Source: Porphyromonas cangingivalis
GTDB taxonomy: Bacteria; Bacteroidota; Bacteroidia; Bacteroidales; Porphyromonadaceae
Direction: 5' to 3'
NCBI RefSeq assembly: GCF_900638305.1
Contig: NZ_LR134506.1
Location: forward strand, 1,550,001-1,614,000
Length of the DNA: 64,000 nucleotides
Shown: piece after piece, positions 2,966-64,000 of the stretch
Position numbering within the stretch: the stretch's first letter is position 1
Layout: each line of letters opens with the position of its first letter
Notes under the pieces: model-generated
What the model was told of the DNA's origin: nothing
Databases searched by the model: none
Seen by the model: the letters and a program-made list of their open reading frames with translations, nothing else
Made by a program: the position numbers and the translations under genes

Positions 2966-3331
2966 TATAAAGAATTTCATTTTTCGAAAATTCGGAGAGG
3001 AATTTTCACGATTTTCAATTTTCGAAGATTGACAGCAGAGCACCACTGATAATCAGGAGATTAGAATGAACAAAAACAGCATTTCTTCGAAAATAGAGTG
3101 AAGATAAGAGCATCCGCAAGTATTTTCGAAAATCTCACCTCACATCTAAAAAACACAATGATCTGATATTCAAAAGGAAAAGAAAATCGCGACCATCAAA
3201 AAAGTTTCGAAAACAGATTCAGGATTTCGGGTCACATCCGAGTAGCTTCATTCGCCCCCTGAGCCACGTGTAAAGAGGGGCAAAATAAAGTCGTAGGAAG
3301 GTCGAAAACGAATCCTAGGACTTTCGAAAAC
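2883..3331. repeat. Cluster of TTCGAAAAT motifs
   Basis: The gene-free stretch between the CRISPR array and leuS carries TTCGAAAAT exactly at 2883, 2983, 3086 and 3125. Variants occur at 3021 (TTCGAAGAT), 3206 (TTCGAAAAC) and 3323. The core TTCGAA is palindromic and several copies extend to ATTTTCGAAAAT. They may be protein-binding sites, or a compositional feature of this AT-rich segment. Apart from these and the 22-bp element at its right end, nothing else was recognised here. Confidence 0.45.
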
Positions 3332-3371
3332 GAATCTTACGACTTTCGTCATCGAGTCCTAGGACTTTTTT
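3290..3371 (+). repeat. Dispersed 22-bp-unit element, copy A
   Basis: There are three full 22-bp units (3290-3311, 3312-3333, 3334-3355) and a 16-nt terminal unit (3356-3371) ending in six T. The unit cores are CCTAGGACTTTC or CTTACGACTTTC. This copy is enclosed by an imperfect 22-bp inverted repeat. Its arms are 3277-3298 (starting GGGGCAAAATAAAG) and 3357-3378 (ending TTTTTTCAGCCCC), with 4 mismatches. It lies about 200 bp upstream of leuS in the same orientation. Confidence 0.8.
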
Positions 3372-7897: not shown

Positions 7898-7980
7898 AAT
7901 GCCTGATCCTCGAAATCAAATTGTCTAACTTGTCGCATCACCTCAGACAACCTTCGTGATCAAGTCAGACAACCTTTTTT
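7898..7980 (+). repeat. Dispersed 22-bp-unit element, copy F (divergent)
   Basis: Units are 7898-7919 (ends CGAAATCAA), 7920-7941, 7942-7963 (CTCAGACAACCTTCGTGATC) and a 17-nt terminal unit 7964-7980 ending in six T. The core is CAGACAACC rather than the CGAC core of the other copies. The period, the AATCAA end of unit 1 and the total length of 83 bp match. It lies 32 bp after rdgB in the same orientation and 129 bp before dinD. Confidence 0.65.
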
Positions 7981-8109
7981 CATGAGACCGAGATCAGAGA
8001 TATACCACAAACCGCTGTAAAGTAATCTTTTTCTGTAACATCGGCTGAAGCTCCCTTATGTCGAACAACTGACGTTGAAGAGCAGATCACACATAGCAAC
8101 CCATAGAGT

Positions 8110-8958
8110 ATGACAAAAGAGGTATCCAAACATACACCGACCATATTTGAGCAGATCCGTCAGGTCGATGAGCAGGGCAACGAGTTTTGGAGTGCTCGTA
8201 CCATGGCAAAAGCCTTGGAGTACTCGGAATACAGACATTTCCAACCTGTCATCGAGAGAGCTAAAGAAGCTTGTGTCAACAGTGGTCAAAAGCTCACTGA
8301 CCATTTCGAGGACATCCTCGAAATGGTCCCCATCGGTTCAGGAGCAGAGAGGAAAACAGATAGTGTAAGACTCTCTCGTTATGCCTGTTACCTGATTGTC
8401 CAAAATGCAGACCCGAGCAAAGAGATCGTAGCATTGGGTCAGACCTATTTTGCAATACAAACCCGTTTGCATGAAATAAGGCAAATGGAGGAGTACAACC
8501 GACTAAGCTCGGAGGATGAAAAACGACTCTTCCTCCGCAACGAGATGGCCAAGCACAATGCCCAACTTGCCGCAGCGGCAAAAGACGCCGGAGTCATTCA
8601 GCCCGTGGACTATGCCATCTTCCAAAATCACGGCTACATGGGACTCTACGGAGGGTTGGATGCAAAGGCGATACACGCAAGAAAGGGCTTGAAGAAAAGT
8701 CAGCAGATCTTGGATCATATGGGAAGCACCGAGTTGGCGGCAAATCTATTTCGCGCAACGCAAACCGAAGAGAAACTGAGAAGGGAAGACATCAAAGGCA
8801 AGCATAAAGCCAATCAAACTCACTTTGAAGTTGGCAAAAAAGTGAGAGATACCATACGTGAGCTTGGTGGAACCATGCCCGAGGATCTTCCCACAGCTGA
8901 CAGTATAAAGAAGATCGAGAGTGCAAAGGAGCCTAAACCTCTAAAAAGGAAAAAGTAA
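8110..8958 (+). CDS. dinD: DNA damage-inducible protein D (DinD)
   Basis: The protein has 282 aa. The N-terminal half is a Bro-N-like domain (EFWSARTMAKALEYSEYRHF, then RLSRYACYLIVQNADPSKE). The C-terminal half has the conserved DinD segments LFLRNEMAKHNAQLAAAAKDAG, quoted here as NEMAKHNAQLAAAAKDAG, plus YGGLDAKAIHARKGL and ILDHMGSTELAANLFR. In E. coli DinD is an SOS protein that antagonises RecA filaments. Whether it is damage-inducible here cannot be seen, as no LexA-type operator was recognised. It ends in a basic tail (KPLKRKK). xseA follows after 49 bp. Confidence 0.9.
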   Translation: MTKEVSKHTPTIFEQIRQVDEQGNEFWSARTMAKALEYSEYRHFQPVIERAKEACVNSGQKLTDHFEDILEMVPIGSGAERKTDSVRLSRYACYLIVQNADPSKEIVALGQTYFAIQTRLHEIRQMEEYNRLSSEDEKRLFLRNEMAKHNAQLAAAAKDAGVIQPVDYAIFQNHGYMGLYGGLDAKAIHARKGLKKSQQILDHMGSTELAANLFRATQTEEKLRREDIKGKHKANQTHFEVGKKVRDTIRELGGTMPEDLPTADSIKKIESAKEPKPLKRKK

Positions 8959-16387: not shown

Positions 16388-16509
16388 TTATGATTGTGCC
16401 ATCCATTTGTGAGGGATAGCCCATAAAGGTACAAAAAGCATACGATACAAGGATCGGGGAGTTCATGAGTCGGATGCTCTTTTTTCTGATCAGGATGGGG
16501 GCTCGAAAG

Positions 16510-16592
16510 GTTTAACGACCTTCGAAATCGAGTTTAACGACTTTCATCATCAAGTTTAACGACTTTCGTCATCGAATCTAACGACTTTTTTT
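16510..16592 (+). repeat. Dispersed 22-bp-unit element, copy B
   Basis: There are three full units (16510-16531, 16532-16553, 16554-16575), each starting GTTTAACGAC, and a 17-nt terminal unit 16576-16592 (ATCTAACGAC then seven T). It lies in the 556-bp divergent region between uvrA and the first susC. The rest of that region (16388-16509, 16593-16806) holds nothing recognised. Confidence 0.85.
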
Positions 16593-33229: not shown

Positions 33230-33381
33230 TTGCATACCCGGAAGTTACACTTAACATAGCCCTTCGTGATCATCCCTCGCAGGAAGAGTCTGAAACCCGA
33301 ACAGATACCGGCCTAAAAAGGGACAACTAACCATACACGCTTGGGGGAGAGCACTACTCGTTAACCTTATCGACCGATAAC

Positions 33382-33464
33382 CTCGTTCGATGGTCAAAAT
33401 CAAGTTTAACGACTTTCGTCATCGATCTTAACGACCTTCGTTATCGATCTTAACGACTTTTTTT
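33382..33464 (+). repeat. Dispersed 22-bp-unit element, copy C
   Basis: Units are 33382-33403 (degenerate, ends AAAATCAA), 33404-33425 (GTTTAACGACTTTCGTC then ATCGA), 33426-33447 (TCTTAACGACC) and the 17-nt terminal unit 33448-33464 with seven T. It lies between the DoxX terminator and the convergent nitroreductase. The remaining sequence of this 490-bp gap, outside the two terminators, shows nothing else. Confidence 0.85.
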
Positions 33465-40860: not shown

Positions 40861-40943
40861 AAAAAAAGTCGTTAAACTTGATGATGAAAGTCGTTAGACT
40901 TGATCTCGAAGGTCGTTAGACTTGATTTGTACCATCCTTTGAC
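40861..40943 (-). repeat. Dispersed 22-bp-unit element, copy D (minus orientation)
   Basis: Read on the minus strand, the units are 40943-40922 (degenerate, ends AAATCAA), 40921-40900 (GTCTAACGACCTTCGAGATC), 40899-40878 and the 17-nt terminal unit 40877-40861 (GTTTAACGAC and seven T). It lies 49 bp after the stop of the minus-strand gene at 40993-41577, in the same orientation. Confidence 0.85.
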
Positions 40944-40992
40944 CTTCGTTACCCTCGGAAAGAAGAAGGGGGACGAGAGGGAGTCCGGACGA

Positions 40993-60685: not shown

Positions 60686-60750
60686 TCTCCACATTCGCCA
60701 TCCGCCCTCTCGTCTCCCCACAGAGACCTCCTACACGCATCCCAAATCAA

Positions 60751-60833
60751 CTCGTACAAGTGCCGAAATCAAGTCCTACGACTTTCGCCACCAAATCGTA
60801 CGACTTTCCTCATCAAGTCCTACGACTTTTTTT
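60751..60833 (+). repeat. Dispersed 22-bp-unit element, copy E
   Basis: Units are 60751-60772 (CTCGTACAAGTG, ends GAAATCAA), 60773-60794 (GTCCTACGACTTTCGCC), 60795-60816 (ATCGTACGACTTTCC) and the 17-nt terminal unit 60817-60833 (GTCCTACGAC and seven T). It is 65 bp after mnmD in the same orientation and 22 bp before the convergent mutS stop. Confidence 0.85.
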
Positions 60834-63495: not shown

Positions 63496-63569
63496 AAGTA
63501 TATGTTTTTTCTTCTTGTATTCTCGATAATGTGTTGAAAAGAAAGTTGTACAACCTTTTTTCGTAGGGT

Positions 63570-64000
63570 CTACTTCGTCCGTTTGGCCATGTGGGAATGG
63601 ATGTCAAGCAGGTAAGATAGACTGAGCCCGACCTCATAGCCGTTGTTGTGCCGTCCGAGGAGCCCTTCGGCAGGGAGAGCCGAGGGCGCGAAGAGATAAC
63701 CTGCCCCCACCCTCATCCCGAAGGTACGGTGGGTGACGAGGGTCAGTCCTCCACCGATCTTGACAATGGCCGATGCACAGGTATAGTCCTCGATCTCCAT
63801 CCCATCGGCACTTACTGTCAAGATCTTGCCTACACGACCTGCAGAGAGATAGCCTGCACCGGTCTCCAGATCCCACCACATCCGTCCGCCGAGGATGGGT
63901 CTCATGTACGACAGACCGACAAGGAGCGCATGGGCATTGAGGTGTTCGTGGCGTTCGCTGTTTTCGCCTCTGAAGATCCTGGCCTGCACCACCGTACCGA
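63570..64000 (-). CDS. Probable outer membrane beta-barrel protein (partial)
   Basis: The frame is open through the right edge, so the N-terminus is missing. The visible ~143 residues show alternating hydrophobic strands and turns: NAHALLVGLSYMRPILGGRM, WWDLETGAGYLSAGRVGKIL, VKIGGGLTLVTHRTFGMRVG and a final GYEVGLSLSYLLDIH. The pattern suggests a small outer-membrane beta-barrel with the end close to the stop. No family is recognised. It lies upstream of mutS on the same strand (74 bp). Confidence 0.6.
   Translation of the reverse strand, partial: GTVVQARIFRGENSERHEHLNAHALLVGLSYMRPILGGRMWWDLETGAGYLSAGRVGKILTVSADGMEIEDYTCASAIVKIGGGLTLVTHRTFGMRVGAGYLFAPSALPAEGLLGRHNNGYEVGLSLSYLLDIHSHMAKRTK

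Follow-up and report, generated by a model that had tools for sequence, protein, structure and literature searches.

The window analysed here, a stretch of 64,000 nucleotides, corresponds to positions 1550001–1614000 of the genome of Porphyromonas cangingivalis (G000), a single contig of 2,404,857 bases, and contains six copies of a short intergenic repeat. The copy under study (copy 3; 16507–16592, plus strand) lies between the divergent uvrA and SusC/RagA-type genes. Its readable slots all point forward (FFFFF) at a 22-bp pitch, with units at 16510–16531, 16532–16553 and 16554–16575 and a terminal unit at 16576–16592 ending in a T7 tail, all on the plus strand. Four other copies consist of an inverted left slot followed by three forward slots (RFFF): copy 1 (3286–3371, plus strand; T6 tail) upstream of leuS, copy 4 (33378–33464, plus strand) between convergent DoxX-like and nitroreductase-like genes, copy 5 (40861–40946, minus strand) flanked by two minus-strand genes, and copy 6 (60748–60833, plus strand) between a convergent mnmC2-like gene and mutS. 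Copy 2 (7898–7980, plus strand; RFF), which has a Ham1-family gene on one side and a dinD-like one on the other, has one inner unit inverted and belongs to a sequence type (GTCTAAC/AGACAAC) characteristic of a second Porphyromonas species, G007.

These six copies had been reported by the initial annotation, and all were present in the window with the coordinates and strands it gave. A scan with filters switched off, using a sequence model built from 14 copies (R1), returned the same six with 56.9–85.7 bits and E ≤ 1e-16 (copies 1 to 6: 74.2, 56.9, 84.5, 85.7, 79.2 and 73.4 bits), the next best match having an E of 0.47. A second model built from 12 copies of G007 (R2) scored copy 2 with 57.1 bits and added a candidate solitary dyad at 63534–63572 (no strand assigned; AAAGTTGTACAACCTTTTTT; E = 0.0015), possibly a single unit or a chance match. 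At the gathering threshold, Rfam matched two tRNAs in the window and none of the elements. Upstream of leuS, the window also holds an array of 73-bp repeats (2044–2815) which degenerates downstream; BrickBuilt_12 of Porphyromonas gingivalis ATCC 33277 adjoins leuS according to the accessible part of PMC4596501.

A genome-wide profile scan, as the initial annotation had suggested, revealed at least 113 copies in the host genome. R1 gave at least 156 matches at E ≤ 1, both strands counted. Scoring covered the best 150 of 1149 first-look candidates. The 113 copies are clusters of the 141 listed rows reaching at least 20.4 bits, nine weaker listed rows being left out; this number is a lower bound, and at least two more arrays (535197 and 2379091) came up in a search with the dyad described below. 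Beyond a tolerance of 40 bp, no overlap with a predicted gene was seen for any of the 113 copies. The earlier view of a defined, dispersed intergenic element instead of a random minisatellite was thus borne out by more than 100 further copies genome-wide, none of them in predicted genes.

Typically, the element measures about 86–88 bp and comprises four 22-bp slots, each made of a quasi-palindrome (in G000 AAGTCNNNNGACTT) together with a spacer of 8 bp, for which TCGTCATC is the commonest sequence. The 22-bp period emerged both from tandem repeat finder output and from slot analysis. In many copies the left slot is inverted and makes up a variable terminal module (AAAGTC..GGA..); at the other end, the right slot finishes with a T-run. 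Chance is excluded because the dyad AAGTCNNNNGACTT occurred at 68 sites as compared with 2 for the reversed pattern. Both ends were found in 52 copies, 40 of which have an identical 76-bp span from GTC to GAC; the pattern used was confined to 80–98 bp, so that longer arrays are excluded from these 52. A comparison of indels with substitutions, in which 47 of 87 near-full rows of a model-fitted alignment were gapless, was set aside. Among the unit matches listed for G000, 99 of 100 fall in or beside the 113 arrays, and adjacent FF units of the same element agree in two core bases in 74% of cases as compared with 28% of random pairs.

The orientation of the slots follows a clear preference. A readable R-to-F junction, i.e. 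an inverted left slot facing forward right slots, was present in 70 of the 113 copies; all readable slots point in the same direction in 38, the focal copy included, and an F-to-R junction was seen in 11. Counted as junctions, 73 R-to-F stand against 11 F-to-R in G000 and 66 against 11 in G007 (binomial p < 1e-9). The initial description of a plain tandem array with a degenerate first unit therefore has to be revised: in five of the six window copies this first unit reads as an inverted end slot, and the focal copy runs all one way. A fixed unit count, also claimed, was not confirmed: four slots are typical (58 of 113), two or three readable slots were found in 44 copies including those with degenerate ends, and five to nine in 11. 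At one locus (L105, G000 1780282–1784744), several partial copies of the element lie among small reading frames, two of them of 108 codons; the one frame of this locus tested against Pfam gave no match.

Across 12 genomes of the genus, R1 at E ≤ 0.01 found at least 146 matches in G000 and at least 107 in G007, which carries a related set of elements. One match was obtained in G003 (E = 0.0025), and nine genomes had none among the matches listed; the ceiling of 150 scored candidates applied to these genomes as well. With its own model, G007 yielded 163 matches, both strands counted; the set used here comprises 91 entries, a few of which overlap. A 394-kb sample of G007 contained 33 copies; it consists of long contigs mostly outside the element stretches fetched before, is not random and may understate the density. 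In 38 genomes of the family, a conserved-spacer pattern at 22-bp pitch occurred 49 times in G000 and once each in five others including G007, and its reversed control once each in two of the 38. As this pattern nearly misses G007, it leaves room for other dialects elsewhere. No copy was found in the phage and plasmid collections, and spread by either vehicle was rejected on this ground; viral contigs gave 17 single matches to a short pattern, which were taken as chance, and none to a second pattern. Seven contigs of G007 (C90, C73, C79, C84, C59, C54 and C67) show element matches within about 210 bp of their start, which suggests that the repeat breaks short-read assemblies.

Each of the two carrier species has its own sequence dialect. 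In G000, the half-sites are GTC..GAC in 110 units, ATC..GAC in 58, GTT..GAC in 51 and GTT..AAC in 13, with TAAC, TTAC, ATAC and CTAC as the commonest cores. In G007, 159 units carry GTT..AAC, and the core AGAC was found in 188 of 205 units as compared with 14 of 279 in G000. Window copy 2, which adjoins the dinD-like gene, is a copy of the G007-type dialect inside G000. Within G000, copies of the TAACGAC type (42) lie nearer to 1.68 Mb than those of the NTACGAC type (51; p = 7e-5 in a test made after the trend had been seen), and neighbouring elements are not more alike than expected by chance (p = 0.57). The cumulative GC skew of the element-flanking stretches has its minimum at about 1.5–1.8 Mb, roughly at 1.68 Mb. 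To call this region the origin is tentative, because dnaA lies at position 22 of G000 and the skew was taken from the element-flanking stretches only.

The genomic placement of the copies was evaluated with our own simple hexamer gene finder. The 113 copies of G000 were found in tandem (61), divergent (29) and convergent (14) gene contexts, the remaining nine being located at the edge of a stretch. Regular spacing along the chromosome was considered and rejected; gaps below 5 kb numbered 9 as compared with 23.5 in random placement of 113 copies, but the 80 best copies show no regularity. Insertion sequences with a Mutator/IS256-type transposase (PF00872) lie within 600 bp of an element in four of their 15 genomic copies (G000: L033, 99948–101368; L082, 1464269–1465914; L074, 1271141; L031, 55016), and attraction of this insertion sequence was not accepted at p = 0.07. 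One copy of it seems to split an element; another is flanked by a pair of 253-bp direct copies (96%) with an element in them.

Presence and absence of the element differ between the two species. Nine copies of G000 have colinear flanks in the G007 sequence that was compared. At three of these sites (115393, 1377414 and 1745042) both species carry the element, and at five (327611, 763231, 812812, 1741583 and 2046232) the scans gave no match in G007, where site 1741583 relies on an 89-bp flank match and site 2046232 on a gene-sized length difference. The ninth, 1557898, is window copy 2; opposite to it, a shorter interval of G007 contains a weak partial match (E = 0.0009) which looks like a decayed unit. 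Positions 7898–8958 of the window hold this copy and the dinD-like gene beside it; the gene is missing from the shorter interval. Within the 394-kb sample, which was not chosen for elements, two of five colinear sites are occupied in both species. One G007 copy, L181, has no counterpart in G000. For 55 copies of G007 with fetched flanks, both flanks were common to a G000 copy in one case and one flank in 20. Clean empty sites could not be read, since the two species have hardly any alignable sequence between their genes.

To what extent shared occupation reflects common descent can be judged from the similarity of the paired copies. A place at or close to the top in both directions was missed by five of the six syntenic pairs. 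Most of the shared sites may therefore have been occupied independently, and this is made more likely by the finding that 29 of the 131 intergenic regions of at least 110 bp in the G007 sample are occupied. In-place change of the dialect at shared sites was accordingly rejected, as such a mutual top or near-top position is reached by only one of the six pairs. This pair, 1377414/L206 (rank 1 of 90 and 2 of 113), looks inherited from its sequence similarity and carries the two dialects, the readable inner units all being in the dialect of the respective species. Simple subfamily turnover does not explain a site of this kind.

The limits of the element were determined by comparison of 508 similar pairs among the 80 copies with at least 40 bits, the 33 others being left out. 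At the right end, the match stops at most 6 bp away in 466 pairs, runs past it in 26 and stops before it in 16. At the left end of the same pairs, the match stops inside the element in 464 and passes the end in one. The element thus has a boundary on its right and no sharp limit on its left. A target-site duplication of at least 4 bp was found in three of 52 copies as compared with a mean of 2.8 in shuffled sequences, and one hidden in the A/T-run is possible. As to terminal inverted repeats of the MITE type, the R-to-F inversion is readable in the 70 copies mentioned above and the left end is variable. The REP-associated tyrosine transposase (PF01797) had no match in G000 and G007, and at least one in four of the 12 genus genomes; it was consequently rejected as the mobiliser in the two carriers. 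No other mobilising enzyme was found, and no autonomous parent element came to light in passing.

We consider the chances about even that the family is a lineage-specific, non-autonomous dispersed repeat which resembles REP, BOX and MITE elements in its behaviour. A unit of about 88 bp would spread, or would have spread, into intergenic DNA, would have been gained and lost between species and would have multiplied into distinct sequence subfamilies in the two Porphyromonas carriers. The body of the element would be the array described here, typically of four quasi-palindromic 22-bp slots in mostly outward orientation (R..RF..F) with A/T-run ends. We infer that the phased palindromic slots serve as recognition sites for a trans-acting factor, which copies the element and leaves no detectable target duplication. 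This reading is favoured by the copy number and intergenic placement, the prevalence of four slots, the common right end, the outward order, the differences in occupation between the species, the dialects and the position of the TAACGAC-type copies. Against it stand the lack of a target-site duplication, of a PF01797 match and of a parent element, the blurred left end, the unreadable empty sites, the two weaker cases among the five sites without a G007 match, and site 1377414/L206. The terminator-like hairpins are probably a by-product, and selection that removes copies inside operons and promoters would lead to the observed placement. If the element is mobile, it would be a source of rearrangements and of polar or promoter effects. 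In any case, it occupies more than 100 intergenic regions of an oral bacterium, amounting to some 10 kb of sequence close to promoters and to the ends of genes, and it may be of use as a strain-typing marker.

The main rival to this REP/BOX/MITE-like reading, possible in our opinion but rather doubtful, is a phased protein-binding array. A sequence-specific protein, such as a regulator or a nucleoid or segregation factor, would bind to four dyads that lie on the same side of the DNA helix, as 22 bp make two turns, and its recognition sequence would have diverged between the species, the sites being carried along with the change in recognition. The 22-bp pitch with four slots as the typical number, the excess of the dyad over its control and the commonest dyad halves, which differ on both sides between the species (GTC..GAC in G000, GTT..AAC in G007), are in agreement with such an array, as is the inherited-looking site 1377414/L206 with its species-specific inner units. 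However, no candidate protein was found, and the left half varies independently in G000, where GTC, ATC and GTT are all combined with GAC, so that the units are asymmetric. The poor ranking of five of the six syntenic pairs, by which most shared sites may be independent, likewise counts against this reading, and the family was found in number in only one of the 11 other genus genomes among the matches listed. If the element is bound by a protein, it would point to a chromosome-wide factor. A more far-reaching proposal, that four-dyad phased binding platforms mark the boundaries of transcription units and that their code was rewritten together with the cognate protein between the two species, appears unlikely to us.

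That the element lies between transcription units as an insulator, or as a terminator working in both directions, is quite unlikely, too. Hairpins with −10 kcal/mol or below before at least four T were predicted on at least one strand in 71 of the 113 copies and on both strands in 19, and element ends with an adjacent RF pair gave mean hairpins of −13.5 to −22 kcal/mol as compared with −2.8 and −5.4 for shuffled sequences. The hairpin potential is thus real and above that of shuffled sequence, but no use of the hairpins is visible. In the 61 tandem contexts, the T-tail points the same way as the gene in 28, and the terminator-like strand is the one with the gene only in 11, the one against it only in 14, both in nine and neither in 27 (Wilcoxon p = 0.98); moreover, no terminator-like strand was found in 42 of the 113 copies. 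The placement of the copies can be read in both ways. In tandem contexts, the copy is nearer to the 3′ end in 46 of 61 cases, and in the G007 sample 15 of 36 regions between oppositely oriented genes are occupied as compared with 14 of 95 tandem regions, region length not being controlled in this comparison. Both observations would fit a terminator, but divergent contexts outnumber convergent ones, and selection against copies in operons and promoters would explain the same picture equally well.

A minisatellite, i.e. a 22-bp repeat growing and shrinking by slippage without a defined element, would account for the arrays of five to nine slots and for the likeness of units within an element, but it is highly improbable in view of the marked prevalence of four slots, the R-to-F inversion, the common right boundary and the more than 100 dispersed loci. 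Equally improbable is a structured RNA or an sRNA whose hairpin is maintained by selection: several of ten folded copies were more stable than their shuffles (z down to −5.5) and the palindromic copy L126 resembled an Rfam 3′UTR family (E = 0.011, well below the gathering score), but the other folded copies were no better than shuffles, the window contained no Rfam match at the gathering threshold besides the two tRNAs, and hairpin covariation was rejected because core matching between RF neighbours was not clearly above that between FF neighbours (56% as compared with 74% for two core bases, 32% as compared with 28% for five bases).

Among known repeat systems, an integron attC site was considered because GTTAGAC fits its core site; it was rejected since none of the 12 genus genomes has an integron integrase over the TIGR02249 cut-off and many G000 cores (TTAC, ATAC, CTAC) do not fit. 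A CRISPR array was rejected as well, because its spacers would be unrelated and here the same 8-bp spacers are used repeatedly; TCGTCATC, for example, is found in 25 FF junctions. Closer are the BIME/REP and BOX elements. The family described here differs from them in the typical four-slot 22-bp pitch with its outward rule and in that the carriers have no match to a REP-associated transposase. With them it shares a mosaic build, in which palindromic modules of either orientation are combined between genes, as well as the high copy number and the hairpin and T-run features (for BOX, RUP and SPRITE, see the accessible part of PMC10969869). The DNA uptake sequences of Neisseriaceae are similar in being species-specific dialects of a genome-wide repeat; as far as outlined in the available text of PMC3630211, they consist of a short motif that is present thousands of times, whereas nearly all unit matches listed here lie in or beside the arrays. 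The 77-bp capsule inverted repeat, as it appears in the accessible part of PMC3969353, was rejected as a different and longer structure.

The family seems not to have been described before: among the open-access papers listed for it, no title or opening of an abstract describes it, and the literal 16-mer was absent from the open-access literature searched. According to the available part of PMC5771137, its authors did not annotate repeats of 3–31 bp. Tandem repeats of 22 nt were reported for strain W83, their exact locations not being given in the accessible portion of PMC4596501; they have the same repeat length, are known here only through this mention and may be part of the present family.

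The most obvious candidate for a relative within the genus is the BrickBuilt MITE of P. gingivalis, which is likewise intergenic, dispersed and composed of short tandem repeats. The initial annotation had raised a kinship with it, which our results do not support. As described in the available text of PMC4596501, BrickBuilt elements have 23-nt repeats, a length of 84–991 nt and 19 copies in ATCC 33277, as compared with 22-bp units, about 88 bp and more than 100 copies here, and many of them also have a leader and a tail, with terminal repeats of the IS5 type. A search for the terminal inverted repeat of this type (GAGACCTTTGCA and its variant), one mismatch being allowed, gave a site within 20 bp of one of the 113 copies and within 400 bp of two; the sole stretch within 20 bp (one mismatch to the BrickBuilt-type repeat) also matches other IS5-type repeats. 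Sequence that could correspond to a BrickBuilt-like leader or tail was equally lacking, as identity extended more than 6 bp past the right end in 26 of the 508 pairs of the 80 copies and past the left end in one. The two families are set apart by the description of BrickBuilt and not by an alignment of the units. On this basis, the element is a real high-copy family. Its architecture, with typically four slots in outward order, is unusual and sets it apart, by description, from BrickBuilt.
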